Part shown: positions 333-16,582 of the stretch, piece by piece
Layout of the letters: each line of letters starts with the position of its first letter
Position numbering within the stretch: the first letter of the stretch is position 1
Assembly: GCA_016931115.1 (NCBI GenBank)
Contig: JAFGFM010000041.1
Span: 1-49,458 of the forward strand
Length of the DNA: 49,458 bases
Direction of reading: 5' to 3'
Source: Deltaproteobacteria bacterium
GTDB lineage: Bacteria; Desulfobacterota; DSM-4660; Desulfatiglandales; HGW-15
Made by a program: the position numbers and the translations under genes
Notes under the pieces: model-generated
Database searches by the model: none
What the model was told of the DNA's origin: nothing
Seen by the model: the letters and a program-made list of their open reading frames with translations, nothing else

Positions 333-1703
333 TCACTTGCTTACTGGAATAACAAGGGTCTTCCCTTTATCGGTCAGCCTGTATTTTTGATTTCGTGATT
401 TAGGCTTATCAGGGACTGTCATCTCAATCAGATCATTATTAAGCGCTTTATTGAGTATATTTTTTACAAAGTTTTTCTTATCCTTGTACCCCATAATTTC
501 CATTATTTCTACACGCCCCATTTCTCTATTCAGGATGGATAATAGTTTTTCGACTTGGGGGGTGACTTGGGGGGTGACTTGGGGGGTGACTTCTACGTTC
601 TTGCGGTTGAACACTACAGTAAACCAGTTATCGGATACATCAAATGTCGGAATTTTTACCCCGGACTCTTCGCAAAGTTCTTTAATGCGATTTATTCCGC
701 TGCCTATTTGTTCTACCAGTTCCATCCTGTAAAAAATATCGAACAAAAGGGGGTTTCTGGGCACACTTTTAACCCCGAGATCCTCTGCTTTCATCCCTGC
801 TGGTAAACCACCTGGTGTTATTATTTCAAGTCTGTCGTGGTAAATATGGATCTGAACATTAGCGGTTGATCTGTAGTCTCGGTGTACAAGTGCGTTTACC
901 AGGGCTTCCCTCAGGGCATCATCAGGCAATTCCAGCCTTTCTTCTCTTCCTTTTGAGTGAGGAATCATCTGGGTATTAAGCCTGGACTCCATATATTCCA
1001 TACAATTTTTGTAAATAGAATAAAGGTCTCCGGTAAAATCCCTTCTGTCTAATATATGAACATTATTTGTTCCCCGAAACAGGGCACATGTTACTCCTGC
1101 ACGGATATTGTATCTGGTAATGTCGTGACACAGTAACTATGCGCCAGCATTGGTCATCTTACTATTTTTTATGAGATGAAGATTGCCAAGTGCTGTTTCC
1201 ATTTTTATGTCAGGAGGTATACGAGCTGCTTTAGCAAACTTTATCCATATTTCAGGAGTAAGGTCATTATCGAAATCATATTCAATGCATGGAACCTGAT
1301 CATATTTAATAAGACCTTCTTTAAAGAAAAATTCTCGAATTTCTTCTCGTGACATCTGCTGTGAAGTGGCACCTTCACGTATATAAAATTTGCCTGCAAA
1401 TGAATATGGCTTGCTATGCTGTTCCGGGATTTCGACACAAAGAACATTTTCAACATTTGATATTTTAAGTAAGACTGGTGGATCAGCAGAACGTGCTATG
1501 GTTTGAATCTCTGATTTCAACCGGTTATGATCTTTTACTCCAACAACTTCACCAGAGTCATTTACCCCAATTAAAATTACCCCGCCAAGTGCATTCGCAA
1601 AAGCACAAATCTCCCTTCCGAGCCCGGTTGTTCCCGAACGCTTAAACTCGGTAGTGTAACCTTCTCCGAGGGCAATTATATCTTTAAGGGATTGTTTATT
1701 CAT
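333..1703 (-). pseudogene. AlbA_2 / ATP-binding transcriptional regulator-like gene interrupted by an in-frame TAG
   Basis: Two adjacent open frames are in the same phase. The first (1703-1137, 188 aa) has an AlbA_2 (Schlafen-type) domain beginning EGYTTEFKRSG. A single TAG at 1139-1137 ends it. Reading through gives 267 further codons to 333, including a stretch RAGVTCALFRGT that is homologous to the normal family continuation, then the helicase-associated ATP-binding region (ALVHRDYRS, GSGINRI) and a winged-helix C-terminus. The joined product would be about 456 aa, the usual family length. A VTPQ repeat linker precedes the last domain. Family members are putative DNA-binding regulators or defence-linked proteins; none has a clear link to C1 metabolism. 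The downstream part could be translated separately from an internal Met (1001), but simple inactivation is the likelier reading. Confidence 0.8.
552..587 (-). repeat. Three perfect 12-bp tandem repeats coding for VTPQ linker
   Basis: GACTTGGGGGGT occurs three times head to tail on the plus strand, and on the coding strand encodes the linker VTPQVTPQVTPQV between the ATP-binding region and the C-terminal winged helix of the broken AlbA_2 gene. Such VTPQ linkers are common in this family and probably change length by slippage. Confidence 0.9.
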
Positions 1704-2026
1704 TACCTTAGAACCTTATGGTCTCTTTTTCCACTTCCGGATAGACATCATCTATCTCTTATACCCGTACCTCTTTAAATAAATTGTTAAAAATTTTTAT
1801 CAGAAAACAGGTAGTTGAGCAATTGTTTTATCGGGGTTGAAAGTATGTATCCCTATTCTCAGGTGATTTATTCATTAAGGCTGAAACTCATATTAAAAAA
1901 AAGAAGCCTTGATCTTGTTGTATTTCTATCTCCTTGACACGCTATTTTACTTTCCCTATACTCCTTGCCTAACATAATGTTTTAACAGGAAATTTAAATT
2001 AATCACATTTTATGTGGAGATAATAA
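1704..2026. other. Divergent intergenic region upstream of fwdD
   Basis: This 323-base gap separates the minus-strand AlbA_2 remnant from fwdD. It is AT-rich and has no convincing ORF. It holds one near-consensus sigma70 promoter facing fwdD (1934-1962), and the fwdD ribosome-binding site (GGAGA at about 2014). I see no riboswitch-like structure or tRNA. Confidence 0.6.
1934..1962 (+). promoter_or_regulatory. Near-consensus sigma70 promoter for fwdDBAC
   Basis: TTGACA (1934-1939) is separated by exactly 17 bases from TATACT (1957-1962). Transcription would start near 1969, leaving a leader of about 58 bases before the fwdD ATG at 2027. The match is 6/6 and 5/6 to the consensus. Confidence 0.75.
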
Positions 2027-2377
2027 ATGGCCGGGATAAGCGGTCTTCTTGTAACAGTGCGTACAGGGAAGCAGGGGGCTGAGATGATGCGGGGTAAAAT
2101 GAATCCCGAATATCTTGATGAGATCTCCACCCTTCGCATCAACCCTGATGATATGGCTGAGGCGCAAATGTTACCGGGCCAGAAGGTAAAGGTGTCAAGC
2201 TCCTTTGGTGAGGTCACAGTGACATGCATTGCATCAGATGTACCCAGAAAACTCTTTTTTCTTCCAGTCGGGCCTGTTGCAAACAGGCTTGTAAGCGGCT
2301 CAGATACAGATGGCACTGGTGTCCCCGCCTGGAAAGGAGAGCAAGTGACCATTGAACCTGCTGATCAGGTGCAATAA
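2027..2377 (+). CDS. fwdD: Formylmethanofuran dehydrogenase subunit D (molybdopterin dinucleotide-binding)
   Basis: At 116 aa this has the length and layout of FwdD/FmdD, the small beta-barrel subunit that completes the Mo/W bis-pterin pocket of FwdB. The N-terminal TVRTGKQGAEM and the C-terminal DGTGVPAWKGEQVTIEP are characteristic of the family (compare GTGMPDFKG in archaeal sequences). It begins 58 bases after a predicted transcription start and its TAA shares a base with the ATG of fwdB, implying translational coupling. The methylotroph Fhc complex has no such subunit, so its presence points to a metal-containing, redox-active Fwd rather than a simple hydrolase. It is probably cytoplasmic. 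Confidence is high from motifs and from the order D-B-A-C. Confidence 0.9.
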   Translation: MAGISGLLVTVRTGKQGAEMMRGKMNPEYLDEISTLRINPDDMAEAQMLPGQKVKVSSSFGEVTVTCIASDVPRKLFFLPVGPVANRLVSGSDTDGTGVPAWKGEQVTIEPADQVQ

Positions 2378-3678
2378 TGGATCAGGAATTAAAGGTACAC
2401 AGTGATGTTATATGCACCTTCTGCGGGTGTCTTTGCGATGACATTGAGGTGGAGGTGGTTGATAACCGGATAAGCAAGGTAAAAAAGGCTTGCATGATAG
2501 GCCGCAACAAGCTTATGCATGCACAGTCAAATAACCCTGACATTACAATAGCAGGAAAGCCGACCTCTCTTGATGCAGCGATCAATGAGGCGGTAAACAT
2601 CCTTACAAATGCGCGGTTCCCACTGGTCTATGGCCTGAGCAGCACAACCACTGAGGCACAGCGTGAAATGGTCGAGATTGCGGAGATACTTAATGCAACA
2701 ATAGATAACCCATCTTCATACTGCCACGGGCCAGGGCTCATGGCGAGGCAGCAGGTGGGGCTATCTTCATGCACTCTTGGAGAGGTAAAGAACAGGGCAG
2801 ACCTGGTGATCTTCTGGGGCTGCAACCCGCTTGAATCACATGTCAGGCACTTAACAAGATACTCGGTATCAGCAAAGGGCATGTTTCATCCGGAGGGGCG
2901 GAAAAGCCGCAAGATTGTCTCTATTGATATACGGCCAACACCCACTACAAAATCATCCGATTGGTTCATACAGGTTACCCCCGGAAACACCTTTGAGATT
3001 GCAACTCTCTTAAGGGCGCTTGTGGCTAATAACCCGATTGGAAAAGGTGATGATGCCTTAATCGCTGGGGTCGCTGTGAGTAAATGGCGGGAACTTGCTG
3101 AAATGATCAGGGGATGTAAATATGGTGTTATCTTTTTCGGGCTTGGTGTAACACAGTGCAGGGGGAGGGACATCAATGTGGAACAACTGGCTGTCCTGGT
3201 GAGTGAAATCAATAATCACACACGATTTTATGCCATGGCAATGAGGGGGCACGGGAATGTGGCAGGGGGAAACCAGGTAATGACCTGGCAGACAGGTTTT
3301 CCCCTTGCTGTAAACTTCAGCAGGGGTTACCCAAGGTATAATCCCGGAGAGTTCAGCGTGATAGGTCTCCTCGCACGAAAAGAGGTGGATGCAGCATTGA
3401 TAGTTGCAACAGACCCGGGTGCACATTTACCTGCTGATACAGGGGATCATCTAAAAAATATACCTGTAATCTATCTTGAACCTCACAATAACCCGACAAC
3501 AGAATGGGCAACAGTTGTTATTCCTGTTGCACAGGCAGGTGTGGCGGCTTCGGGCACATATTATCGAATGGATAACGTACCTCTTCGTGTTAAAAAGATT
3601 GTTGACTCAGATCACCTCTCAGATGAGGAGGTACTTAAAAGGATCAAGGAGCGGATAACCCATGCTCAGAATTATTAA
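2377..3678 (+). CDS. fwdB: Formylmethanofuran dehydrogenase subunit B (catalytic Mo/W subunit)
   Basis: This 433-aa protein matches the usual FwdB length. FwdB reduces CO2 to formate at a Mo or W bis-pterin site, and formate then passes to FwdA. The N-terminal CTFCGCLCDD gives C13, C16 and C20, with C39 in KKACMIG, the pattern for one [4Fe-4S] cluster. SSYCHGPG puts a Cys at 116, where archaeal FwdB has its metal-ligating Cys (Cys118 in the Methanothermobacter enzyme) followed by His-Gly-Pro. Later blocks such as WGCNPLESH, MRGHGNVAG and ATDPGAH are also family-typical. Methylobacterium FhcB is known to have lost the metal ligands, so this copy looks catalytically complete. It overlaps fwdD by one base and fwdA by 17. 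Mo versus W cannot be told from sequence. Confidence 0.93.
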   Translation: MDQELKVHSDVICTFCGCLCDDIEVEVVDNRISKVKKACMIGRNKLMHAQSNNPDITIAGKPTSLDAAINEAVNILTNARFPLVYGLSSTTTEAQREMVEIAEILNATIDNPSSYCHGPGLMARQQVGLSSCTLGEVKNRADLVIFWGCNPLESHVRHLTRYSVSAKGMFHPEGRKSRKIVSIDIRPTPTTKSSDWFIQVTPGNTFEIATLLRALVANNPIGKGDDALIAGVAVSKWRELAEMIRGCKYGVIFFGLGVTQCRGRDINVEQLAVLVSEINNHTRFYAMAMRGHGNVAGGNQVMTWQTGFPLAVNFSRGYPRYNPGEFSVIGLLARKEVDAALIVATDPGAHLPADTGDHLKNIPVIYLEPHNNPTTEWATVVIPVAQAGVAASGTYYRMDNVPLRVKKIVDSDHLSDEEVLKRIKERITHAQNY

Positions 3679-5299
3679 TGGAAAGGTATATGATCCGGTA
3701 AATCGTATCCACGGGGAAATTAGGGATATCTGTATCAGGGATCAGAAGATAGTTGAAGGCCCTCTCCCCCCGGAAACAGAGATCATTGATGCTAAAGGCT
3801 GTGTGGTAATGCCGGGCGGTGTTGAGATACACAGCCATGTGGCAGGCGCAAAGGTGAATAACGGGCGTATGCTCTGCCCTGAAGACAGCGCTGACCATTT
3901 TCGTGCACATACCGAGATCCTAAGATCGGGCTGTAATGGCGTTGTGCCTACTACATTTTTGACTGGCTATGAATATGCACGCCTTGGTTATACAACACTG
4001 TTTGAGGCGGCAGTGCCCCCTTTAAAGGCGCGCCACGCACATGAAGAGCTGAGGGATACCCCCATTTTGGATACAGGCTGTTATACAGTCATGGGAAACA
4101 ATTACCTTGTAATGAAGGCGTTGAATGAACCGGATGAGATAAGCCGGAGGGAAAAGCTCATGGGGGTTGTGGCGTGGCTCCTTGAATCCACAAGAGGTTA
4201 TGCAGTAAAGATAGTGAACCCCGGAGGTGTTGAAAACTGGAAATGGAACAGGGGCCTTGTTGACCTTGATACGCCTGTGCCCCCATTTGATGTTACCCCG
4301 CGCATGATCATGACAGGTCTTGCAAGGACTGCCTATGAATTAAAACTGCCTCATCCCATACACCTGCATACCAATCACCTGGGGGAACCCGGTAACATGG
4401 CCTATACCTTAGAGACAATGAAGGCCCTGTCAGGAAGCAGGGCGCATTTTACCCATCTACAGTTCCACTCCTATGATAAATCAAAGAGGGGAGGGTTTGC
4501 ATCAGGTGCAGTAGCTATTGCAGAATATTTTAACAACCATCCGGAGTTTACATGTGATGCCGGGTTGATCGTCTTTGGCCCCACCATGACCATGACAGCA
4601 GATGCGCCAATGGAATTCAGTCTGCATCAGATGAAAGGCGGCAAGTGGTCGAACCTTGACATAGAGATGGAGACAGGTTCAGGTGTTGTGCCTATCAAAT
4701 ATCAGCCGGATTCACTCGTCAATGCGGTGCAGTGGTGTTTGGGGCTGGAATTGATGCTACTCATAAATGACCCCTGGCGGGTCTTTCTTTCAACCGATCA
4801 TCCGAATGCAGGGCCGTTTACCTCCTACCCCCTCCTGATTAAGCTTCTTATGGACAGGGATTTCAGGATGTCATGGTATGAGATGCTCCATCCAAAGGTA
4901 AAGGAATATACCTGCCTTCATGACCTCACAAGGGAATATTCACTTGAGGAGATTGCAATAGTTACAAGGTCAGGCCCTGCAAGGGCGCTTGGATTAAAAA
5001 ACAGGGGGCACCTTGGTGCAGGTGCTTATGCGGATGTTGCGATTTATCCATTTTTTGATGATAAACAGAAGATGTTTTCTTCAGCCTCTTATCTGATCAA
5101 GGATGGAAGAGTAGTTGTTCGTGATGGTGCGATAAAGGAGAGCTTCAGTGGAAGGGCACTGGGGCTGGAACTGCCTGTTAAGGGTGAACTGGCAGGCGAT
5201 CTCAAGGAATATTTTGAGCAGTATTCCACAGTAGCATTTTCAAATTACAGGGTTGAAGAGGAGTATACACCAAGGCCAGAGCTGATCAGGTGCGGATAA
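3662..5299 (+). CDS. fwdA: Formylmethanofuran dehydrogenase subunit A (amidohydrolase)
   Basis: This 545-aa protein is of the FwdA/FhcA amidohydrolase family, which joins formate to methanofuran (or the reverse) at a dinuclear zinc centre. Metal-site elements are in place: H57 and H59 in VEIHSHV, a Lys at 183 in VKIVNPGG (the position carboxylated in archaeal FwdA), histidines at 231-239 in HPIHLHTNHLG, and D379 in STDHPNAG. The ATG at 3662 lies inside the end of fwdB (17-bp overlap). FwdA is shared by redox Fwd and hydrolytic Fhc complexes, so it alone does not tell which type this is; fwdD and the fwdB cysteines do. Confidence 0.93.
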   Translation: MLRIINGKVYDPVNRIHGEIRDICIRDQKIVEGPLPPETEIIDAKGCVVMPGGVEIHSHVAGAKVNNGRMLCPEDSADHFRAHTEILRSGCNGVVPTTFLTGYEYARLGYTTLFEAAVPPLKARHAHEELRDTPILDTGCYTVMGNNYLVMKALNEPDEISRREKLMGVVAWLLESTRGYAVKIVNPGGVENWKWNRGLVDLDTPVPPFDVTPRMIMTGLARTAYELKLPHPIHLHTNHLGEPGNMAYTLETMKALSGSRAHFTHLQFHSYDKSKRGGFASGAVAIAEYFNNHPEFTCDAGLIVFGPTMTMTADAPMEFSLHQMKGGKWSNLDIEMETGSGVVPIKYQPDSLVNAVQWCLGLELMLLINDPWRVFLSTDHPNAGPFTSYPLLIKLLMDRDFRMSWYEMLHPKVKEYTCLHDLTREYSLEEIAIVTRSGPARALGLKNRGHLGAGAYADVAIYPFFDDKQKMFSSASYLIKDGRVVVRDGAIKESFSGRALGLELPVKGELAGDLKEYFEQYSTVAFSNYRVEEEYTPRPELIRCG

Positions 5300-5315
5300 T
5301 GGAGATGAACAAATT

Positions 5316-6161
5316 ATGAAATCCCAAATACAGTTAACCCTCAAAAAGATACCGGATATACCTGTTGAGGCGGAAAATATAAAACCTGAAAACATGGCAG
5401 GTAAAACTATATCAGAAATAAAGGCTATTCCCATACTGGTTGGGAAATGCTGGGAGCCTGCAGGAGACTGGTTTGATATAGGAATAAAGGAATCGCCCGA
5501 ATCAGATTCGGAAAAACCGGTTATTGATCTATTTATAAAAGGCGATTTAACCCGTTTTAAGCGGATTGGTGAGGGCATGTCACAGGGCAGTATGCGAATA
5601 GATGGCACAGTGGGCTTTCATGCCGGCGCAAAAATGTGCGGAGGAGAGCTTATTATTAATGGCAATACAGGAGATTATCTTGGGGCACATATGAAGGCCG
5701 GTCTCATAGTGGTTAATGGCAATGCAGGTCATTACATTGCCGCAGCATACCGCGGCCACGCAAAAGGGATGGCAGGTGGGACCATAATTATTAAAGGGAA
5801 CGCAGGTCAGATGCTTGGCGCAAGGATGAGGCGCGGGCTGATTTATGTTACAGGCGATTGCGGGGATGCGCCTGGGTTTAACATGAAGGCAGGGACTATT
5901 ATTATTGGCGGTACGCCGGGTGCAAGGGCAGGCGCAAGGATGGTGCGTGGAACCATAATGCTTCTTAATAAGGACAACCTGCCTGAACTGCTCCCCACTT
6001 TTACATATAACTGCACATACACACCTTCCTTCTGGGGAATAGCCAGAGGGGTCCTTTCCAAGATGGGCGTTCAATCTGAAGCCGGCACTGACCTCCTTTT
6101 TAAACGTTATAGTGGCGATACAAATGAAGGGGGCAGGGGTGAGATATTGATATCAGCATAG
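5316..6161 (+). CDS. fwdC: Formylmethanofuran dehydrogenase subunit C
   Basis: This 281-aa protein has the FwdC/glutamate-synthase-type beta-helix, seen as repeated G-x-x-G-x-x-x-G units between about residues 85 and 210 (for example GNTGDYLGAHMKAG, GNAGQMLGARMRRG, GTPGARAGARMVRG). FwdC is the structural subunit that holds FwdA and FwdB together. GGAGATG 16 bases upstream serves as ribosome-binding site, and the gap from fwdA is 16 bases. It is the last gene of the operon: the next gene is convergent and a perfect palindrome follows within 10 bases. No polyferredoxin or FwdE-like subunit follows, so the electron donor is unknown. Confidence 0.92.
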   Translation: MKSQIQLTLKKIPDIPVEAENIKPENMAGKTISEIKAIPILVGKCWEPAGDWFDIGIKESPESDSEKPVIDLFIKGDLTRFKRIGEGMSQGSMRIDGTVGFHAGAKMCGGELIINGNTGDYLGAHMKAGLIVVNGNAGHYIAAAYRGHAKGMAGGTIIIKGNAGQMLGARMRRGLIYVTGDCGDAPGFNMKAGTIIIGGTPGARAGARMVRGTIMLLNKDNLPELLPTFTYNCTYTPSFWGIARGVLSKMGVQSEAGTDLLFKRYSGDTNEGGRGEILISA

Positions 6162-6169
6162 GTGTAACA

Positions 6170-6197
6170 GTAGGGGCGAAAAATTTTTCGCCCCTAC
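6170..6197. repeat. 28-bp perfect palindrome between convergent fwdC and CitG-like gene
   Basis: Arms GTAGGGGCGAAAAA and its exact reverse complement meet with no loop. An identical copy is at 34995-35022. The right arm contains the TAG stop codon of the convergent CitG-like gene. It may act as a bidirectional terminator, but it belongs to a dispersed family in this window. Confidence 0.9.
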
Positions 6198-7084
6198 AGC
6201 GCCTGCACCTTTAAACCATTTTCCATCAAATACACAAACAATACAGCAGCAGTGAGGTCAGCGGTTGTGCCGGGGTTGAGGCGGTTGTCATGTGGGATTT
6301 TTTCACTCCTGCGTAAGAGGGTGTCCAGATCTTTTATTTTGTTACGGCCTTTTTCACTGAATATACCTCCTGACATTAGCACATCTGCTGCCTGATCTGA
6401 GATATCCTTTGCAGTATCTATTCCTGCCTTTCTTGCAATGAGTGTATCGGGTACCTGTGACAGGAGAATTAGAAATGTTTGAATTATTGCATCAGAAATT
6501 GGTACTTGTTTTAAAATAACCTCTTTAAGGGCAGGAAGGCCAGTCTCCAGTGTTATTTTAAAATCAGTAACATACTCCCTTGCTATGCTGTCACGATCCT
6601 TTGCGAGCACCATTGCATCCAGCAGGGTAATTTTGACCTCACTACCATTGATATCACTCTCCTTGACCTTTCCCATTCCGCCTGGAGCAACGATCCTGAT
6701 TGCCTCATAGGTTAACCTGGCATCATCTACTGTCACTCCTTTAATAACCCTCTTCAAGTTATCTCTAAAACTATTATTTGAAATGGTGTATGCCTTTGCA
6801 AGGGGGGCAAGAAGAAGGATGATGCCAAGATTTGTATTAACACTGGTTAGCGCTCTTGTGTCTTTAACAGCCTGAAGGATAGTTTCACCTACAGAGGCGT
6901 TTGATACATTTCTGAATGCCTTTCCTATGGCAACTGCACTGACAAGAAAGTCCTGATATTTTGTATCAGCAAAATCATGGGTGGGAGTGACATTGCCGGG
7001 TTTTTCTGCACTCACCTCAAGGAGGCAGGCCAGTTCTGTGGCCATTCCGATCTTTTCATTGATATCCATAGATAAGTAATCCAT
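6194..7084 (-). CDS. CitG/MdcB-like protein of H4MPT gene clusters
   Basis: This 296-aa protein resembles triphosphoribosyl-dephospho-CoA synthase (CitG/MdcB). It has EVSAEKPGNVTP near residue 23, NTNLGIILLL around residue 104, and a C-terminal NPGTTADLTAAVLF. Homologues accompany H4MPT C1 genes in methylotrophs, where they are thought to serve cofactor synthesis; no citrate or malonate lyase genes are nearby, so a prosthetic-group role is unlikely here. It is the last gene of the minus-strand operon, 98 bases after the MptN-like gene with a hairpin between them. The stop codon TAG is supplied by the palindrome at 6170-6197. The start is uncertain (7084 or the Met at 7069); neither has a clear ribosome-binding site. 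Confidence 0.75.
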   Translation of the reverse strand: MDYLSMDINEKIGMATELACLLEVSAEKPGNVTPTHDFADTKYQDFLVSAVAIGKAFRNVSNASVGETILQAVKDTRALTSVNTNLGIILLLAPLAKAYTISNNSFRDNLKRVIKGVTVDDARLTYEAIRIVAPGGMGKVKESDINGSEVKITLLDAMVLAKDRDSIAREYVTDFKITLETGLPALKEVILKQVPISDAIIQTFLILLSQVPDTLIARKAGIDTAKDISDQAADVLMSGGIFSEKGRNKIKDLDTLLRRSEKIPHDNRLNPGTTADLTAAVLFVYLMENGLKVQAL

Positions 7085-7096
7085 AAAATATATTTC

Positions 7097-7154
7097 ACAC
7101 GGAGAGCACGGAGTACGCGGAGATTGTTTTAGTTACGCTCCGTGCTCTCCGTGT
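7097..7154. repeat. 17-bp inverted repeat inside the C1 operon
   Basis: ACACGGAGAGCACGGAG (7097-7113) and its perfect complement (7138-7154) flank a 24-base loop. It sits between the MptN-like and CitG-like genes and could form an intra-operon hairpin, though CACGGAG-type repeats are also dispersed elements in many genomes. Confidence 0.85.
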
Positions 7155-7182
7155 CCTGCGTGGTTAATCGTTTTTTCTATCA

Positions 7183-8058
7183 TTATGAATTATATTTATT
7201 AAGCACATAATCCACAATATGCGATGCAGCATCAAAGCCTGTTGCCTTTTCAAGCCCGCGCCAGCCAGGGATTGAATTTACTTCAATCAGGTAATTGGTG
7301 CCATCTTCGCCCGGCATAATGTCTACCCCGGCATAGTCTGCTTTTAGGACTTCAGCGGCCTTTATGCTTATATCACTGATTACACTATCGGGTTTAAAAG
7401 GCTCCGCATCAGCGCCATTGGCTATATTACATTTCCAGTCTGTTCCTCTCCTTATCATGGCGGCTGCGACCTTACCACCAATGATAAATACGCGGTAATC
7501 ATTGTTATTATGAGGGATATATCTCTGGATATAAAAAATGTATCTGCCCATCTCAATGGCCCTGAATATCCTGTATGCAGTATCTTTATCTGTTACCCTC
7601 ACCATTCCCTTGCCTTCAGAACCAAAAAGCGGTTTAACAATCACATCCCTTCCCAGTTCATCAAATGCCGCAACAGCATCATCAAACCTTTCTGTGACTA
7701 TTGTCTCAGGCACCCTTATCCCAAGGTCTTCCATGCGTGTAAGGGTATAGTATTTGTCCACGCCCCTTTCAATGGTCTCTGCGGAGTTGATCACCTTAAC
7801 ACCCAGGTTTTCAAGCCGGTGAAGTGCATCCATGCGGTATATTACCTGTTCCAGGGAGCCGGATGGTATAGCCCTTACAAGGATAACATCATATGCCTCA
7901 AGCCGGTTTTCAGAGGATGAAAGATATTTACCTGTGCCAACAGATGCGGTCAGCGATGTAATGGGAAAACAGGGCGCTTCAATATTTTTATTCCTGAATG
8001 CTGACTGAAGGGCATTGGTGTACCAGGTATCTTTTCTGCCCAGGATGGCTATCTTCAT
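7183..8058 (-). CDS. RimK-family ATP-grasp ligase, MptN-like (tetrahydromethanopterin glutamate ligase candidate)
   Basis: This 291-aa protein is a RimK-type ATP-grasp ligase. After an N-terminal pre-ATP-grasp domain, VIVKPLFGSEGKGMVRV (about residues 140-156) is the ATP-binding loop, and the C-terminal YLIEVNSIPGWRGLE carries the metal-binding Glu-Val-Asn. In archaea MptN adds glutamate to H4MPT to give tetrahydrosarcinapterin, and RimK-like genes are regular members of bacterial H4MPT clusters. Here it overlaps the end of mch by 4 bases, implying co-translation. The natural role may be adding amino-acid side chains to the pterin cofactor; RimK ligases have varied acceptors, so the substrate is inferred. 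Confidence 0.8.
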   Translation of the reverse strand: MKIAILGRKDTWYTNALQSAFRNKNIEAPCFPITSLTASVGTGKYLSSSENRLEAYDVILVRAIPSGSLEQVIYRMDALHRLENLGVKVINSAETIERGVDKYYTLTRMEDLGIRVPETIVTERFDDAVAAFDELGRDVIVKPLFGSEGKGMVRVTDKDTAYRIFRAIEMGRYIFYIQRYIPHNNNDYRVFIIGGKVAAAMIRRGTDWKCNIANGADAEPFKPDSVISDISIKAAEVLKADYAGVDIMPGEDGTNYLIEVNSIPGWRGLEKATGFDAASHIVDYVLNKYNS

Positions 8059-9017
8059 GAGAAGAGCCCCTGTTTTAAAAGCGCTATGTTTACCTTACCT
8101 GCCCTGAATGTCTTCCCGGTTTTTGTATCATTAATTGAAACTTCAGCCGGGCTGAAGAGCAGGGGGTCTATCTTATAAAAGTCATAGTCATATCTCTTGA
8201 AAAGATCATAAAAGGGTGTGCCATAGTCAGTAGATGCAGAGGAGGGGAGTTTATATATCACCTTTTCTATTGGCCCTGCTCCACAGTTTGCCGTGTACCA
8301 TGCCTTTCCACCGAATAATACTGCATCGTTTGTCCTGCCTATAGCCTTCAGGTCATTCTCTGCGATCGGCGCAACAGGACACACCCCAAAGCCTGATGTG
8401 ATGCATGTTATATCAAAACCTGTTTCTATCATCTTGTGCAGACCGGTCTCAACGACCCTTGCTGCAATCTGGATTGAACCCACAAGGCTCGCTGTTGGTG
8501 CTATAAGAAGAGTAATCTTTTTAGGTGATACATTGCATTTACCTGCAATCCACATGGCCACTTCATCATCGGGTAGCTTACTGTTTTCAAGAAGAATAAT
8601 AGCACAATCATTCTCCTCTTTTATCTTTAACCTTTGAAGCAGCTCTTCCTTACAATAGATCGCCCTTGCAGGGCCTGAACCCATAGCCTGATAGGGTTTC
8701 TTACCCTCCCTTTCCACCTTTATAAACCACCCGGCATATTGTGAACCCATGCATGCAAGCAGAGGGTTGTTTACTGTGACCTTTACACTGGGGATAGAAA
8801 AGTCATCATATGTGAGTTCGCAGAATTCTATTTTGCCCAGCCCGCTCATGCATATCTCGCTATAGAGTATTCCTGCCTCACATGATCCTGTAACATTAAC
8901 CCCCGCATCTATCACAGTGGCGCCACATTTGAGTTTTTCAACTGCTATATTGAGGGCATCTGCATCCGCGATCATCCGTGTTGCCAGTTCATATGCCCTG
9001 TTGTTCATCATATTCAT
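8055..9017 (-). CDS. mch: Methenyltetrahydromethanopterin cyclohydrolase
   Basis: This 320-aa protein has the length and features of Mch, which converts 5-formyl-H4MPT to 5,10-methenyl-H4MPT by reversible cyclisation. Recognisable blocks are GVNVTGSCEAG, NPLLACMGSQYAGW, AMGSGPARA, IAPTASLVGSIQI and FGVCPVAPIAEND. It overlaps the following MptN-like gene by 4 bases and is separated from ftr upstream by 223 bases of repeat-rich DNA. The chosen start is the first of three closely spaced Mets (9017, 9011, 9008). It acts in the cytoplasm between Ftr and MtdB. Confidence 0.95.
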   Translation of the reverse strand: MNMMNNRAYELATRMIADADALNIAVEKLKCGATVIDAGVNVTGSCEAGILYSEICMSGLGKIEFCELTYDDFSIPSVKVTVNNPLLACMGSQYAGWFIKVEREGKKPYQAMGSGPARAIYCKEELLQRLKIKEENDCAIILLENSKLPDDEVAMWIAGKCNVSPKKITLLIAPTASLVGSIQIAARVVETGLHKMIETGFDITCITSGFGVCPVAPIAENDLKAIGRTNDAVLFGGKAWYTANCGAGPIEKVIYKLPSSASTDYGTPFYDLFKRYDYDFYKIDPLLFSPAEVSINDTKTGKTFRAGKVNIALLKQGLFS

Positions 9018-9240
9018 TTATATGAATTTCTCCCTTAATTAAAAGATGAACGTTCAACATCCAACTTTCAACGTCGAACTTCCAATGTAAAGCATAACAA
9101 AATCAGTGTAGATAATTTAGTTTTAATCATTCACAATTCAATGTTGAACATTCAATCCACCTTCGTAAATACTACGTCGTGACAAGTGTTCGATGTTCGT
9201 CTTTAAAAACCTTGCGCCCTGAGCCCAGCGCCTTATCCCC
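9018..9240. repeat. Repeat-rich spacer between ftr and mch
   Basis: The 223-base spacer holds degenerate repeats of the type TTCAACATCCAACTTTCAACG (9050-9080) and an inverted unit CAATGTTGAACATTCAAT (about 9138-9155). It also contains CCTTGCGCCCTGAGCC at 9210-9225, found again at 10319-10334 upstream of ftr. No ORF is seen. These look like dispersed intergenic repeats. Confidence 0.6.
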
Positions 9241-10125
9241 TTATTTTAATATTTCTTTTAGATGAAAATGGTATTGCCCCAGCTTCCCACCATAATTACC
9301 AGCAGAGATGCGTATGACCCCTGGTATGCATGCCTTAATTATTCCTCTCCTTGTGGCCTCCTTTATGGCCTCTTCACTCAGGCCATCTATGACTATTTCA
9401 AGCACGGCATTTACCCCTTCAGGGATACCGGTTTCTACCCTTGAGCGGATTGTCGGGCAATAGGCGGTATTTACAGAAACTTGCTGCCCCTTATACCTTG
9501 AGCCTATCTTGCTCCCACTCCTTACTATGCCCCCGGGAAATGGCATTATAACCCCTTGCACCTTTTTCATCTCTTCTATGGATGCTTCAGCCGCGGCAAG
9601 GGCAGAGGATAAATCTTTGGCAAGGATAAAGAAGTTGCCACCCCCTATGGCATTTACAATGGAATAACTTTCTTCCACAAGAAATTCACCATCCATTACC
9701 GGGACACGCCAGAACCTTCGACCATTAATGAGCTTGCTGCTCTGAAACCCGTCTCCAAAAAACCTTAGCTTGCCCCCAGTCTTTATCTTTTTATCTGAAA
9801 CAAGGTCATTAAAACATGCGGATGTGGGGGATGTCATTATGCATTGACCTATCCGGTTCATGAGCTGCTTTTCCATATCCTTTGTTGACATGGTGAAAAA
9901 CAGTACTTTTACGCCCGGACGTCCATCCATACTCTCTTCAGGGGTTAAGATAGTATTGATCCCTGCCTCACAACCGCACCCGATTATGGATGTTGCAAAA
10001 CCTGTTGCTGTCTGAGCAGCGATCATGGCCCACTTTTCATTGATAGCTGTTATGGTAATACCGGCAGCCTTCATGCCGAATGCCTCTGCAAAGGTATCTT
10101 CAATTTCTATATTATTAATTTTCAT
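9241..10125 (-). CDS. ftr: Formylmethanofuran:tetrahydromethanopterin formyltransferase
   Basis: This 294-aa protein is full-length Ftr (FhcD in methylotrophs). It moves the formyl group from formylmethanofuran to H4MPT. Family blocks visible are IEDTFAEAFGMKAAG at the N-terminus, IGCGCEAGI, GRPGVKVLFF, QCIMTSPTSACF, RFFGDGFQ, and MPFPGGIVRSGSKIGS. AGGGACT lies just upstream of the ATG as a weak ribosome-binding site. In Fhc systems ftr (fhcD) is in the same operon as fhcABC; here it is on the opposite strand in the biosynthesis operon, flanked on both sides by about 220 bases of repeats. Confidence 0.95.
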   Translation of the reverse strand: MKINNIEIEDTFAEAFGMKAAGITITAINEKWAMIAAQTATGFATSIIGCGCEAGINTILTPEESMDGRPGVKVLFFTMSTKDMEKQLMNRIGQCIMTSPTSACFNDLVSDKKIKTGGKLRFFGDGFQSSKLINGRRFWRVPVMDGEFLVEESYSIVNAIGGGNFFILAKDLSSALAAAEASIEEMKKVQGVIMPFPGGIVRSGSKIGSRYKGQQVSVNTAYCPTIRSRVETGIPEGVNAVLEIVIDGLSEEAIKEATRRGIIKACIPGVIRISAGNYGGKLGQYHFHLKEILK

Positions 10126-10342
10126 AGTCCCTGTTTTCCTTGTTCCACCATGAGGGCACGCTGCGGCGTGCCCCTACATTTATTTACCCCTGTTCCCTTT
10201 GTCTTGCAGGATAATATCAATTTTTTATCAGGTCAGCTTTTTAGGTCGGGGATAAACCCCGACCCTACTTCACAATAAGGGCACGATGACACGTGCCTCT
10301 ACATCCTTGCGCCTTGCGCCTTGCGCCCTGAGCCTTGGGCTT
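10126..10342. repeat. Repeat-rich spacer with three imperfect palindromes upstream of ftr
   Basis: The 217-base spacer between the DHPS-like gene and ftr contains three imperfect palindromes ending in CCTAC or TCTAC: 10151-10178 (GGGCACG...CGTGCCC), 10242-10268 (AGGTCGGGG...CCCCGACC) and 10276-10302 (GGGCACG...CGTGCC). They share the outer GTAGGG-type arms of the palindromes at 6170, 34995 and 46648 but differ inside. Next to them is a GCGCCTT triplet repeat (10310-10330), ending in the 16-bp CCTTGCGCCCTGAGCC that recurs at 9210-9225. Confidence 0.7.
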
Positions 10343-11656
10343 TTATTTACTTCCCCACCTGAGCGGCTCCTCCTGCACATACCTTTTCCCTAATCTTATT
10401 GCAAGTGCTGCCCTTTCAAGCTCTTTACCCAGATAAAAGGCATGCCCTGTATCTGTAACCTTAAGCCTGTCAAATATCTCCTGTGGTTCATTTCCATAAA
10501 TGAATATATCACGGTTAAACAGGTAAATCATTTTGTTATCTGTAAAGATCCTGTAGTTTTTATCCTCGATCTCCTTTTGCATGCCCCTCAGTTCCTCTTC
10601 ATCATAAAGATCAAAAGGTGGGTCTTTAAGCATTACCAGGTCATAGTTAATCCTTTTTGGTGGCATATGATTTTCATATGCGTAATGCATTAACCTTCTT
10701 GCCCTGTCAAGCTCCTTTACTGAGCCCTTTGCCCAGCTTATTACCTCTGTTGTGAGCAGATAATTGATATCAAGCTCTGTTGCAACCCCTGCCATCAAGG
10801 CATTAATGCCATTACTGTCTGCGTCAATAAGTTCTGTCAGGTTGCCCAGCCCCATCATTATCTCTTTATCCGGGTAACATTTCCTGAGGTTAATATATCT
10901 CTCTATTGATTCTATAAACCCAAGACACAAAGGATCAAGAACAGGGTCCAATATATAACCCTTTCCACAATCATCCAGCCTGGCTGCGTTCTTCATAAGG
11001 GATTCAAGCCCCCCATCAAAATCAGGTATCAAAACTACCTTTGCGCTTACCTGTTTGGCAATATCCATGTTCGCGGAGTTAACACTCAGAATTATATCAG
11101 CTCCGGCCCTGTCTGCCTTTAGAATGGTCTCTCTGTCAAATGAGTCAATGCTTACCCTGAAACCAGATGCCTTAAGCGCCTTTACCGCCATTTCGACATC
11201 CCTGAAACTACCCTTTGCCGGGCCGCCAAGGTCAATGATATCTGCGCCTGATGCCCTATAATATTCTGCCTTTTTTATGATCTCATTTATAGAAAGGGTA
11301 TATGCATCAACAATCTCTGCGATTATTTTTATTTTGTATGGCCCATAACCTTTAAGCTCTATATTTTCACCAAAGAGCAGGGGGATATCCTTGAGGTCTT
11401 TAGGCCCCCTTTTAGCAGGGATGCCGGTTTTATCTTCAATCAGCGAGATATCCCCTTCAGATAATCCGGGGATGAAGATCATGTCATACTGTAAACCCTG
11501 AGCAAGATGATTTGCAATCCATTCGGTGTTCATCAGGGCTGCGACAGTACAGTTGAGCGCAGAAATATCATATCTGAAATCCGTCTTCATCTGGCCAAGA
11601 CATTTGTGAAGTGCCTTTGCTGCGAGCTTACCGGTTATGAATAGATATTTCTTCAT
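10343..11656 (-). CDS. Dihydropteroate synthase-like protein (DUF6513-type) of H4MPT clusters
   Basis: This 437-aa protein has an N-terminal region of about 130 residues typical of DUF6513, then a DHPS-like TIM barrel with GADIIDLGGP (near 155-164), VSIDSFDRETI and LGNLTELID. DHPS joins a pterin to p-aminobenzoate; homologues in archaea and methylotrophs lie in H4MPT clusters and are proposed to join the pterin to the ribofuranosyl-aminobenzene phosphate made by MptG. That role is inference here. The start overlaps the preceding ATP-grasp gene through ATGA, and AAAGGA is upstream. Confidence 0.75.
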   Translation of the reverse strand: MKKYLFITGKLAAKALHKCLGQMKTDFRYDISALNCTVAALMNTEWIANHLAQGLQYDMIFIPGLSEGDISLIEDKTGIPAKRGPKDLKDIPLLFGENIELKGYGPYKIKIIAEIVDAYTLSINEIIKKAEYYRASGADIIDLGGPAKGSFRDVEMAVKALKASGFRVSIDSFDRETILKADRAGADIILSVNSANMDIAKQVSAKVVLIPDFDGGLESLMKNAARLDDCGKGYILDPVLDPLCLGFIESIERYINLRKCYPDKEIMMGLGNLTELIDADSNGINALMAGVATELDINYLLTTEVISWAKGSVKELDRARRLMHYAYENHMPPKRINYDLVMLKDPPFDLYDEEELRGMQKEIEDKNYRIFTDNKMIYLFNRDIFIYGNEPQEIFDRLKVTDTGHAFYLGKELERAALAIRLGKRYVQEEPLRWGSK

Positions 11657-12828
11657 AACATGTTTCCTTTTGCAGGTATGGGTATGATATCGAATACTTC
11701 ATGCTTTATTGTTTCCGCCATACTGAAGAGCGATGATTCACACTCCTTATAGCTGCCCCCCTCAGTGAGGATTGTACACACAGGCTGCCCTGCACCTATT
11801 TCATCGCCTTCAAAAGGGATGTCTCTGATCCCCTTATCCATCCATCCCCTGGTGCTTTTTACCTTGATATCATATTGGGAAAATAATATCCCCTTTGCAT
11901 AATAGATACTGTTATCCTGCGATAAAAGCGAGAAATGAGGCAGTGTCCCGTTGACCGCATGAATATGCAGAGAATAGATGTTGAGTCCATATGCCATCTC
12001 CGCAAGCTCCATTGATGCAGTATACCTCGGATTGACCTCAAGTATGATCGGCTTAACAGCTCCTTTATGATCCCTGGCAATTATAAAATCGATCCCGCAT
12101 GCGCCTTTTAAACCAAAGGTCTCTGTAAGTGAGGCAGCATACTTTTTGAGCATCTTTATCAACTGGTGATATTCATCTTTAGTAACCGGGGGAGGAAGGA
12201 TATTCCCGCACCATGTGCAACCATTTGCGCCAAGCTCATTCAGCCCTATAAGTTGAGCGGATAACCCGATCAGGAGGCTTTTATGTCCATCAGCAAGAAA
12301 ACTTATTGATGCCGGGATACCCTCAACATATCGCTGGATTATCTGGTGGTGAGATAACCTTTCTCCTTCCCATGCCTTTATTCTTGATCCCCCCCCGCTG
12401 TTTGTGGGCTTAAGGAGCCATCCCTTCTGGTTGTGCGCCCTCATCTCTTCACCGCAGAGCAGGGTTTCAGGGAAGGGGATATTGTCTGTGGTCATAAAAT
12501 CTCTTAACACCTTCCAGTCACGAACCTTTCGCAGTGTCTGAGTAGAGTTACCTAGGATTCTTACCTGCTGAGGTGCTTTATCAAGCAGTTCAGGGAAATT
12601 TTCAAAATTGGAAATGTAAACCAGGGAATCAAAATCAAAACTGCTGCTTACCGCTATAAGATTCTCAGCCTTGAAAGGGAGGTTAAAGTCTCTTAAGAGG
12701 GAATAATTTTCAACGATCTGTTTCTGATCATGATCGCCAAAGTAATCAATAGTGAACACGTCATGGCCGGATTTAACCGCAGATTCCGCAATCGCCCTTG
12801 TACTCACACCTGTTATGAGAGTCTTCAT
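11653..12828 (-). CDS. ATP-grasp ligase of the H4MPT/methylofuran biosynthesis cluster
   Basis: This 391-aa protein is an ATP-grasp enzyme. The N-terminal GVSTRAIAESAVKSGH is a Rossmann-like pre-ATP-grasp start; GWLLKPTNSGGGSRIK carries the ATP-binding loop, and VKPIILEVNPRYTASME has the metal-binding Glu-Val-Asn motif. Similar proteins (Orf17-type) occur in methylotroph C1 clusters and are required for the pathway, probably in cofactor synthesis; exact substrate is unknown. It is 12 bases after mtdB and overlaps the DHPS-like gene by 4 bases. It is distinct from the RimK-type ligase at 7183 and from the partial HEY-TGGG protein at the left edge. Confidence 0.75.
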   Translation of the reverse strand: MKTLITGVSTRAIAESAVKSGHDVFTIDYFGDHDQKQIVENYSLLRDFNLPFKAENLIAVSSSFDFDSLVYISNFENFPELLDKAPQQVRILGNSTQTLRKVRDWKVLRDFMTTDNIPFPETLLCGEEMRAHNQKGWLLKPTNSGGGSRIKAWEGERLSHHQIIQRYVEGIPASISFLADGHKSLLIGLSAQLIGLNELGANGCTWCGNILPPPVTKDEYHQLIKMLKKYAASLTETFGLKGACGIDFIIARDHKGAVKPIILEVNPRYTASMELAEMAYGLNIYSLHIHAVNGTLPHFSLLSQDNSIYYAKGILFSQYDIKVKSTRGWMDKGIRDIPFEGDEIGAGQPVCTILTEGGSYKECESSLFSMAETIKHEVFDIIPIPAKGNML

Positions 12829-12840
12829 GCTTTTCAGGTA

Positions 12841-13698
12841 TCAGTTCAATCTGCTTGCAACCTTGTAGATACCCTCTGCATCAAGTACAAGGTCATTCTG
12901 ATCAAAAAGATTAGAGACGCATTCCCTGTGCACCTTCATTTTTAAGGCACCTATTCCTAGGGCGCCGAATATTATTTTACCCTCCTTTTCCTTTGCGGAC
13001 CAGTGGGATTTTGTGCCCTCTATACCCAGGAGCGGCACTGCATTCACGTCGGCAAGGACCTTTATTGCCGGGAATTTTTTCCAGCCTGCCTCGGATAGCA
13101 TGGTAACCCCGGCAGCGCCGCATGAAATAACCACATAGCTGTCACTTATGATATATTCAGTTTCCTCCGCCCCGTTGACTACAGCGGGTGTTACCTTTAC
13201 ATTAAACCGATTTTCTATAGTACCGCATGTATCCTTCAGTTTATCATGCTTTCTTGATGTTATGGTGACACTAGCCCCCTCTTTTGCAAGAAGGGCTGCT
13301 GCCCTCATGCCTACAGGGCCGGTGCCTCCTAATACAGTGACCTTTTTACTCCTTATATTCCCGCAGGATAATATTTTCCGGACAGCAGCGGCTGCGGTTG
13401 TATTGCAACCGTTTGCATCCATCATTACAGAGACCCTTGTTGTCCCGAAAAAACTTTCAACTGCCTCTTTAAGCAGTATCTCTCCCACTGAGACATTTGA
13501 TCCGCCTATGAAAATGGCGCTGTTTTTAAGCTCTGATTCACCCCTTGTAAACATCGCTCCGTATACTATGTCACGAACCTCACCGGGGATTACCCCGCCA
13601 TATGGGAGTATCTGATCAACCCCTGAATCAAGCGCTGTAATGGTATCAAAGGAACTGGGTATCTTGTTGCTGTCTATCTGGATCAATACTTTTTTCAT
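12841..13698 (-). CDS. mtdB: NAD(P)-dependent methylene-H4MPT dehydrogenase
   Basis: This 285-aa protein resembles bacterial MtdB (about 290 aa). The N-terminal KKVLIQIDSNKIPSSFD and YGGVIPGEVRDIVYGAMFT are family-typical for the H4MPT-binding domain, and VLGGTGPVGMRAAALLA is the dinucleotide-binding loop followed by TSRKHDK, which suggests NADP acceptance (Arg-Lys after the second strand) though NAD use is possible. It interconverts methylene- and methenyl-H4MPT. Unlike F420-dependent archaeal Mtd, this is the bacterial enzyme, so the C1 pathway mixes an archaeal-type Fwd with a bacterial dehydrogenase. It lies 17 bases after the MptG-like gene. Confidence 0.88.
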   Translation of the reverse strand: MKKVLIQIDSNKIPSSFDTITALDSGVDQILPYGGVIPGEVRDIVYGAMFTRGESELKNSAIFIGGSNVSVGEILLKEAVESFFGTTRVSVMMDANGCNTTAAAAVRKILSCGNIRSKKVTVLGGTGPVGMRAAALLAKEGASVTITSRKHDKLKDTCGTIENRFNVKVTPAVVNGAEETEYIISDSYVVISCGAAGVTMLSEAGWKKFPAIKVLADVNAVPLLGIEGTKSHWSAKEKEGKIIFGALGIGALKMKVHRECVSNLFDQNDLVLDAEGIYKVASRLN

Positions 13699-13715
13699 GG
13701 TATGCCTCCGATTTA

Positions 13716-14690
13716 TTATGGAATGATCTCTATCCGGGCGCCTCTGTTACGTGCCTGTGTAATAATAACATCACCTGTGATATTTTTCTTCTCTAAAAAT
13801 TCCTTCATTTTATCAGCAAGCAGGGGCGCATCATTTTTATGTACAAGGCCATATATTGCCGGGCCCCATGAGCTCTGGCCTGCACCGGCTGCGCCTGATT
13901 CTATCATATGCCTGATTATTGTATAGGATGATTTCTCAGAATAGATTCCCCCCTGCACAGGTTTAAAAAAGGTGCCGGTCCTGATATCTATCTCTGATAT
14001 GGCATCACCGAATTTCTCAAGGTCTTCTTCAACAAGGGCAGGTAACAACTGCATCATGGTAAGCCTGCATATCTCTTCAGAGATCTTTCTGGATGGGCTT
14101 ACATAGCCCATTGCCTCCTTTTCCTGCTCACCTGAAAGACCAACCTTTTTTTCTGGTATCACAAGCACAAAATGCCACGATGTGGGAAAGTTATACCTTA
14201 ATAGATTTATTGGAGGTTCGGTACACTGCTTTTTCCCGCTCACCATCCTTTTCCCCCCATCAATTATAAATCCCCCCTTTTCAAAAGCTGTAATCCCTAT
14301 GCCCGATCGCAGCCCCCTGCCTGCTATGCGGGCAAGGGCATGATTATTTTCAGAGATATTACAGATCTTTGTGAGTGCAGTGGCAAGGGCAAGCCCAAGT
14401 TGTGAACCCGAACCAAGCCCTTTGTGCTCGGGGATATGTCTTGTAAGATTTATGATACCCCTTGGGGGAGTTTTAAAATGTGATGAAAATGCCTTAATGA
14501 AGGATGATATCCTTTTTCTTGGTTGATCATCCATTTCGCCGATTACAAGCCCTTCATGCTCTTCAATAGTTAGTTGAGTCCGGGGTGCCTTTAGCGTTAC
14601 ACCAATACTCCCGTATAATCTGCCCAGATCACCATTCAGATCAAGAAAGCCCAGGTGGAGCCGGGCTGATGTTGTAACCCTTACCTTCAT
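13716..14690 (-). CDS. mptG: Beta-ribofuranosylaminobenzene 5'-phosphate synthase-like (MptG)
   Basis: This 324-aa GHMP-fold protein begins with VTTSARLHLGFLDLNGD, typical of RFAP synthase, and has the GHMP phosphate loop HKGLGSGSQLGLALATAL. RFAP synthase condenses p-hydroxybenzoate or p-aminobenzoate with PRPP, the first committed step of methanopterin synthesis. C-terminal GAAGAGQSSWGPAIYGLV is the conserved GHMP C-terminal glycine-rich motif. It sits 12 bases downstream of the MmgE/PrpD gene and 17 bases before mtdB. The context makes the H4MPT assignment strong. Confidence 0.85.
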   Translation of the reverse strand: MKVRVTTSARLHLGFLDLNGDLGRLYGSIGVTLKAPRTQLTIEEHEGLVIGEMDDQPRKRISSFIKAFSSHFKTPPRGIINLTRHIPEHKGLGSGSQLGLALATALTKICNISENNHALARIAGRGLRSGIGITAFEKGGFIIDGGKRMVSGKKQCTEPPINLLRYNFPTSWHFVLVIPEKKVGLSGEQEKEAMGYVSPSRKISEEICRLTMMQLLPALVEEDLEKFGDAISEIDIRTGTFFKPVQGGIYSEKSSYTIIRHMIESGAAGAGQSSWGPAIYGLVHKNDAPLLADKMKEFLEKKNITGDVIITQARNRGARIEIIP

Positions 14691-14702
14691 TTATACCTCT
14701 GA

Positions 14703-16097
14703 TCAGGTTAGGAGGTTTATAACCTGGTTAATGTTTTCAAGCTCTTCAAGTCTGTTCAAGAGCTGCATCAGCTTTTTACCTTTTAAAGAATCGATCTTTT
14801 TAGAGAACTCCAGGTTCGATATAAATTTATTTAATATATCATCCCTTGTAAGGGGGTTACCTAATGGATCACCCTTTGGCGATTCTATGAGCTTTTCATA
14901 CTGCTCCCCTGAATTCATTGTCACCCTGATCCTGGCGCATAAAAGCTCCCTTTCAACGCCCGGCAAATGCTCAAGCTGTATCTTATCCATAAACCTGATA
15001 ACCTCAGGGGAGTGAACGTATGATCTTTCAAAGTGTTCCGGTTTTATAGCCTTATTCATGAGGACAGTTGCCACATGATATTTATAATTGAAGGCAGCAC
15101 CTGCATGGGGGAAGTCATTAGCATCAAGGGGCTGTGACAGAAAGCTGTTAAGGCCTGATCTTGATACATAGAGCACCGCCTCTTTTATCTCTCTGAAATC
15201 CAGGTTATAGGTATTAGCGAGAAACATGGCACAATCCACTGCCGCGTGGCTTACAGCGCAGCATGGGTAGAGTTTGAAGTGGGCATCACAAAAATATTTT
15301 TTGCCGAGCTCTTTTGTAAGTATCTCAGGGTTGCCGCAACCGTCCGCAAAAAGGTTGAAATAGCCGAGCTTACCAAACAGGGGGTCATCAGGGCCTGCCC
15401 AACCTGCATTTGCAAGCTGTGCCGAGATAATCCCATTTCTGGAAGATAACCCCTGAAGGAGCTTAAAGGCGGGCACACCATCCCAAATATTCTGCATTGA
15501 ACCTGACATCTGGTTGAATGCAAGGCCAAGGGCATTCCTGATCTGCTTTGTTGTTAACCCCATGATCCGGCCAGCTATTGCAGCAGCCCCAAAGCTGTTT
15601 GTGGTGCCTACGCTGTCCCATCCGGGCGGAAGCCCGCCTGTGCTTTCAGCGGCTATGATCCTTGAGGTCAGGTTATCGCCAGCGATCAGGGCGGTTAAAA
15701 GTTCTTTACCTGAGATACCATAAGTTTCAGCCATTGTGACTGCTGTTATTACAGTTGTGCCGCTAATGTGTGCAGGGTATGATCTTCCATCAACAAGCGG
15801 GCCAAGTGATTCAAAATCAAAGGAGCGGGCCATAACGCTGTTAACGAGTGCAGCATTATGGGCAACAGTTTTATTGCCATGTATGAGGATGCTTGCCTCG
15901 GGTTTACCGCCCCAGTCCCTGATAAGGTTAACAAGTGCCGGGTTGCATTCAGCGTAAGCGCCCGCTGCTACACAGCCAAGAACATCAATGACACGGTTCT
16001 TTGCATTTTCAATAACTGCTTCATCGATATTGCCAAACCGGGTGTCTGCAACATTCCGGCAAAGTGCGTCTGTAATATCTATATGTTGTAAAGCCAT
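14703..16097 (-). CDS. MmgE/PrpD family protein heading the H4MPT operon
   Basis: This 464-aa protein is of the MmgE/PrpD fold (2-methylcitrate dehydratase, cis-aconitate decarboxylase, iminodisuccinate epimerase). Family blocks include VIDVLGCVAAG, HNAALVNSVMARSFDFES, YPAHISGTTVITA, FNQMSGSMQNIWDGVPAFKLLQGLSSRNGI and KLYPCCAVSHAAVD. It is the first gene of the operon, 25 bases after a predicted transcription start and with GGAG 8 bases before the ATG. No other methylcitrate-cycle gene is present. Its role in or next to C1 metabolism is unknown; it may be a side enzyme carried along, or act on a dicarboxylate intermediate. The family is certain, the reaction is not. Confidence 0.85.
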   Translation of the reverse strand: MALQHIDITDALCRNVADTRFGNIDEAVIENAKNRVIDVLGCVAAGAYAECNPALVNLIRDWGGKPEASILIHGNKTVAHNAALVNSVMARSFDFESLGPLVDGRSYPAHISGTTVITAVTMAETYGISGKELLTALIAGDNLTSRIIAAESTGGLPPGWDSVGTTNSFGAAAIAGRIMGLTTKQIRNALGLAFNQMSGSMQNIWDGVPAFKLLQGLSSRNGIISAQLANAGWAGPDDPLFGKLGYFNLFADGCGNPEILTKELGKKYFCDAHFKLYPCCAVSHAAVDCAMFLANTYNLDFREIKEAVLYVSRSGLNSFLSQPLDANDFPHAGAAFNYKYHVATVLMNKAIKPEHFERSYVHSPEVIRFMDKIQLEHLPGVERELLCARIRVTMNSGEQYEKLIESPKGDPLGNPLTRDDILNKFISNLEFSKKIDSLKGKKLMQLLNRLEELENINQVINLLT

Positions 16098-16128
16098 TCA
16101 GAATCTCCAGTGGTATAAATTGTGCCCG

Positions 16129-16157
16129 ATTCTGAATTAACATGATAATAGTGTCAA
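16129..16157 (-). promoter_or_regulatory. Sigma70-type promoter for the minus-strand C1/H4MPT operon
   Basis: On the minus strand TTGACA (16157-16152) is followed after exactly 17 bases by CAGAAT (16134-16129), a 6/6 and 4/6 match. Transcription would start near 16122, 25 bases before the MmgE/PrpD ATG at 16097. Confidence 0.65.
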
Positions 16158-16184
16158 GATGTAAATTTCCAGCAGTTTTAAATA

Positions 16185-16508: not shown

Positions 16509-16582
16509 GTTTACCTCCTGAGCCATTTCCTGGTATTCACCTTGCCGGTTAACCATTATTGTTGGCAAATGATCTTTTAATG

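Follow-up and report, generated by a model that had tools for sequence, protein, structure and literature searches.

A four-gene operon at positions 2027-6161 of the window, by which we mean the whole 49,458-nucleotide stretch analysed (contig C74 of a 5.18 Mb Desulfobacterota assembly, 98.5% complete and 2.8% contaminated), encodes the FwdD, FwdB, FwdA and FwdC subunits of formylmethanofuran dehydrogenase, an enzyme best known from methane-making archaea. It is likely that together these form a catalytically complete core of a bacterial redox-type clade, and that this core ends an oxidative tetrahydromethanopterin (H4MPT) route by releasing CO2. The operon itself belongs to a published kind, and what we add is its genus-level context and a rule relating FwdD to the ligand of the catalytic metal. 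Bacterial redox-type Fwd was described in 2016, 2020 and 2023, in these papers from sequence alone (PMC4807772, PMC7325909, PMC10100899).

The fwdDBAC operon

The four open reading frames are all on the forward strand, overlapping or nearly so. FwdD (2027-2377, 116 residues), the C-terminal molybdopterin-dinucleotide-binding subunit, has a gene of its own and matches FwdD chains in the PDB with E-values down to 1.7e-18; its 67 bits against NF042908 lie under the curated tungsten-FwdD cut-off of 175. FwdB (2377-3678, 433 residues), the Mo/W-pterin catalytic subunit, FwdA (3662-5299, 545 residues), the amidohydrolase subunit, and FwdC (5316-6161, 281 residues), the GXGXG repeat subunit, score 527, 713 and 251 bits, respectively, over the curated cut-offs of TIGR03129, TIGR03121 and TIGR03122. 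FwdB aligns end to end with FwdB of five solved archaeal complexes (8RJA, 5T5I, 9SW6, 9SFI and 7BKB, E-values 6.5e-125 to 9.5e-87), and its N-terminal cluster motif (C13, C16, C20 and C39) lines up with theirs. Counted along the alignment with 5T5I, C116 falls on the metal ligand C118, H117 on H119 and R290 on R288; all these residues are present, and 8 of 8 tested active-site positions are intact. At the FwdA positions checked, H57, H59, K183, H231, H234, H236 and D379 align with the binuclear metal-site residues of 5T5I FwdA. The operon thus has what is expected of a catalytic-type Fwd/Fmd complex, namely the cluster motif and Cys ligand with His and Arg in FwdB, an FwdD subunit and the FwdA metal ligands. 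The original prediction had named FwdDBAC at this place, with a separate FwdD, four numbered cluster cysteines and Cys116 at the metal-ligand position, and is borne out in each respect.

The archaeal W/Mo complexes listed above share subunits A, B, C and D and the metal and cluster ligands with the window, but the window FwdB is on a separate branch and no F, G, E or Hdr partners are encoded beside it. Indeed, no open reading frame with a C-x2-C-x2-C-x3-C ferredoxin motif, as for FwdF/G or an equivalent electron-transfer subunit, was found in the window, so our claim is for the A-D core and not for a full archaeal holo-complex. The earlier observation that FwdE, FwdF and FwdG are not adjacent was correct, yet this is usual in the bacterial clusters examined. 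The Fhc complex of Methylobacterium extorquens (6S6Y) has homologous A, B and C subunits and likewise works with Ftr and H4MPT, but its FhcB-type subunit lacks the ligand residue, FwdD is missing and it releases formate. Neither of these Fhc features, an FhcB without metal ligand or a missing FwdD, is seen in the window, and the match of 6S6Y FhcB to window FwdB is confined to residues 236-396 (E-value 8e-17).

Two bacterial classes of FwdB and FhcB

Comparison across genomes shows that bacteria hold two classes of this subunit, a redox-type FwdB with a Cys or in-frame TGA ligand codon and an accompanying FwdD, and a hydrolytic FhcB with neither, and places the window FwdB in the former. Named genomes yielded 532 relatives in a scan whose patterns spanned part of the cluster motif and not the ligand, which makes the scan biased for the cluster and unbiased for the ligand; in the best 80 of the 532, FwdD, mostly also FwdA, adjoins FwdB in planctomycetes, Gammaproteobacteria, Methylomirabilota, Bacillota, Chloroflexota and Desulfocapsa. 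When 369 genomes were drawn without cluster-pattern bias from the class of one gammaproteobacterial genome, all 14 ligand-bearing FwdB had an FwdD neighbour and none of the 16 ligand-free FhcB did (flanks of ~1.5 kb). When every row is assigned to a class by how it scores against the window, irrespective of its residues, 96 of 96 rows of the first class retain the cluster cysteines together with Cys/Sec116, His117 and Arg290, and 23 of 23 rows of the Fhc class have lost positions 116, 117 and 290; these 23 form a clade with 100/100 support in the FwdB tree. Ligand and FwdD together, or neither, would offer a simple genome rule for separating CO2-releasing from formate-releasing complexes.

An in-frame TGA serves as the ligand codon at 17 loci (Bacillota 5, planctomycetes 11, Acidobacteriota 1). 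It is the sole stop codon within the 390 bases checked at each of them and is flanked as S-Y/L-U-H-G-P; by analogy, it is presumably read as selenocysteine. The window FwdB has Cys at this codon. The earlier contrast between an archaeal-type enzyme and bacterial Fhc was right in that the window does not encode Fhc, but it is too simple, since FwdB proteins that carry the ligand and are accompanied by FwdD are spread over many bacterial phyla, as already published, and the window FwdB itself sits in a bacterial clade.

A ligand-bearing FwdB and a ligand-free FhcB lie within ~7 kb of each other at seven gammaproteobacterial or other proteobacterial loci (L059, L065, L069, L075, L086, L096 and L099); an FdxA-like ferredoxin reading frame follows fwdC in L059 and L096, and L088 has a reading frame with a ferredoxin motif. 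In a planctomycete (L021:6259-7971) FwdD and FwdB are fused in one 570-residue reading frame. FwdB-like proteins from other families of the window's phylum (L124-L129 and L131-L133) keep the four N-terminal cysteines, but Leu, Phe or Trp replaces the ligand; no FwdD match lies nearby, and in the FwdB tree their branches are long and fall on the archaeal side. L130, also from this phylum, has the ligand-position Cys and an FwdD match, but Gln and Gly replace His117 and Arg290.

H4MPT genes of the window and genome

A run of H4MPT-related genes lies on the reverse strand of the window: a CitG-family protein found at the same place in H4MPT clusters of other bacteria (6194-7084), an MptN-like tetrahydromethanopterin:L-glutamate ligase of the RimK-family ATP-grasp type (7183-8058, 257.6 bits against a cut-off of 350), methenyl-H4MPT cyclohydrolase Mch (8055-9017, over the TIGR03120 cut-off), formylmethanofuran:H4MPT formyltransferase Ftr (9241-10125, over the TIGR03119 cut-off), a dihydropteroate-synthase-like protein of H4MPT clusters (10343-11656) and an ATP-grasp protein weakly resembling the tyramine-glutamate ligase MfnD (11653-12828). 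Beyond these are an NAD(P)-dependent methylene-H4MPT dehydrogenase (12841-13698) and a GHMP-kinase-like protein conserved in H4MPT clusters (13716-14690). Of the MtdB, Ftr and Mch originally predicted, the latter two stand, and the dehydrogenase, with 240 bits to M. extorquens MtdA, is assigned at family level as MtdA or MtdB. Elsewhere in the window (35080-37536) is a glycyl radical enzyme of a pyruvate formate-lyase-like family.

The statement that Fae and MetF are missing holds for the window and fails for the genome. The genome search that the original prediction proposed for FwdE, Fae and MetF found five FmdE-domain matches, one Fae (on contig C15) and two MetF, together with one Fhs; the H4MPT formaldehyde oxidation set (Fae, MtdA/B, Mch and Ftr) is complete. 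Contig C15 carries homologues of MfnB, MfnE, MfnF and an AfpA-type flavoprotein together with Fae, and these, with the MptN-like protein of the window, provide for methanofuran/H4MPT biosynthesis, several of the matches being under curated cut-offs and the genes traced being part of the full set. The Fae contig also encodes an aldehyde ferredoxin oxidoreductase paired with a ferredoxin-like protein that has a Tat signal (L115:1763-4590).

In an RpoB tree the source genome joins Desulfocapsa and further members of its phylum (100/99 fork), hence its reading as Desulfobacterota. Of 395 genomes from the phylum, Ftr turned up in only 2, and these belong to the source genus. Neither CODH/ACS (CdhC/AcsB) nor DsrA above cut-off was found in these two assemblies (~98% complete) of the genus; CdhC/AcsB is present in two family members (G003 and G006), and dsrA matches above cut-off occur in all four family members tested (G002, G003, G004 and G006). 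With the H4MPT route present and CODH/ACS and dsrA, two hallmarks of its family, missing, the genus stands apart within our sample.

This context also distinguishes the operon from those in the literature. A planctomycete fmdD-fmdB-fmdA-fmdC operon with Sec, and the same fmdDBAC structure in a Lake Washington bacterium and Ca. Methylomirabilis oxyfera (PMC4807772), as well as fwdDBA-ftr-fwdC with Cys118 and the cluster in a Hakuba actinobacterium (PMC7325909), have the same four subunits, D-B-A start and Cys or Sec ligand as the window; FwdE/F/G are not reported from Hakuba either. The window operon differs from these in that its host genus, of the Desulfobacterota, has Fae and lacks CODH/ACS and dsrA, and in lying on the strand opposite ftr-mch; the Hakuba genome, unlike ours, lacks the H4MPT biosynthesis genes looked for. 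FwdB of Desulfosporosinus lacus, Moorella sulfitireducens and Ca. Formimonas warabiya (L022, L023, L025 and L027) is 62-65% identical to that of the window, and their clusters share its accessory genes (GHMP, DHPS-like, MtdA/B, ATP-grasp, Ftr, Mch, MptN and CitG), but their ligand codon is TGA (Sec) and not Cys, they run fwdDBA-ftr-fwdC-mch on one strand, and no Fae was found in the genomes searched (G062, G063 and G065). All three are candidate hosts for assays.

Proposed role of FwdDBAC

In the oxidative route that we favour, formaldehyde would be condensed to methylene-H4MPT by Fae, encoded elsewhere in the genome, oxidised to methenyl-H4MPT by the MtdA/B-type dehydrogenase and hydrolysed to formyl-H4MPT by Mch, after which Ftr would pass the formyl group to a methanofuran. 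The binuclear metal site of FwdA would then hydrolyse formyl-methanofuran, and formate, kept within the complex, would reach the Mo/W-bispterin site of FwdB/FwdD, where Cys116 would bind the metal, and be oxidised to CO2. Electrons would leave through the FwdB [4Fe-4S] cluster for a soluble acceptor, probably a ferredoxin encoded away from the operon. Activity, metal, direction and acceptor are here what we infer. The retained cluster, ligand and FwdA metal-site residues, the retained FwdD, the pairing of FwdD with ligand-bearing FwdB in the class sampled, the TGA ligand codons of 17 relatives, an FwdB more constrained than the other ten genes compared, the Fae and biosynthesis genes of contig C15, the missing CODH/ACS and the gene order shared with a second species all count for this reading; against it count the lack of an electron-transfer subunit beside the operon, the sub-threshold FwdD score and the fact that no source of formaldehyde was found in the genome.

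Direction is beyond what sequence can tell, and archaeal homologues run both ways. A potential of -0.53 V is given in the literature, as are archaeal complexes that run oxidatively, one of them F420-coupled (PMC11656701). The original prediction had allowed for a hybrid route in either CO2 fixation or C1 oxidation, and of these oxidation is favoured. Were the complex to run in reverse, as archaeal Fwd/Fmd does, CO2 would be fixed as formyl-methanofuran and carried to methylene-H4MPT for biosynthesis or a methyl branch, for which two MetF genes are available. We regard such fixation as unlikely, since CODH/ACS, the enzyme expected for Wood-Ljungdahl CO2 fixation, turned up in neither of the two genus assemblies; Fae is present, one MetF adjoins MetV/glutamate-synthase-like genes away from the H4MPT genes, and no dedicated low-potential electron donor is adjacent.

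Alternatively, FwdA might hydrolyse formyl-methanofuran to free formate, as the bacterial complex 6S6Y does, with FwdB and FwdD as structural relics, and the missing electron-transfer subunit would agree with this. It seems improbable, however, given that the tested active-site positions are intact, FwdD is retained and FwdB evolves slowly, whereas the true Fhc proteins sampled lack Cys116, His117 and Arg290 and have no FwdD adjacent. If the FwdB site were inactive, a formate dehydrogenase could equally finish the route. The original proposal of a potentially redox-active enzyme feeding or draining a bacterial H4MPT pathway is one that the residues and gene content support. More tentatively, and somewhat short of probable, a non-sulfate-reducing Desulfobacterota genus may take formaldehyde to CO2 through H4MPT and Mo/W Fwd with no free formate and with electrons delivered at ferredoxin potential, which would give the bacterial formaldehyde pathway an energy-conserving end that Fhc does not provide.

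Conservation and history of the operon

Gene content and order across window positions 333-16568 recur in the second genome of the genus. FwdB, 95% identical between the two species, is under strong purifying selection (omega 0.06), its NG86 value of 0.057 being the lowest among eleven genes of the cluster, a set without FwdD. This shared order and selection on FwdB reject a binning artefact, and the archaeal contaminant raised as a possibility in the original prediction is refuted by the second species. Although the best solved homologues of FwdB are archaeal, contamination or recent transfer from an archaeon is highly improbable given the repeated gene order, an FwdB that clusters with Bacillota and planctomycete sequences at a distance from the archaeal ones, and other H4MPT genes that group with Desulfocapsa. 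A published survey counted 149 bacterial FwdB and argued for transfer from Archaea (PMC10100899).

The window FwdB forms a clade with those of the second species and of the planctomycete L021, at 73%, with 100/100 support; this clade is nested with Bacillota, again at 100/100, and lies apart from the archaeal sequences sampled, and the FwdA tree agrees. The Ftr and Mch trees join the window to Desulfocapsa (L052; 100/98 and 100), from which it follows that the fwd operon did not share the history of the other H4MPT genes. With topology constraints chosen after the trees were seen, a grouping of the window FwdA with L052 fails the test (p-AU 0.0001), as does one of its Mch with Bacillota (p-AU 0.0007), the rejection for Ftr being marginal (0.042). 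In L052, fwdDBA and fwdC sit inside the gene run that is unbroken on the other strand of the window. The pattern is compatible with a foreign fwdDBAC having displaced an original fwd set, and also with gain in two steps. Between fwdA and ftr of this Desulfocapsa (MC-05, L052:12901-15853) lie genes for a GTP cyclohydrolase-like protein and an NADPH-glutamate-synthase-like flavoprotein, the latter a possible electron partner.
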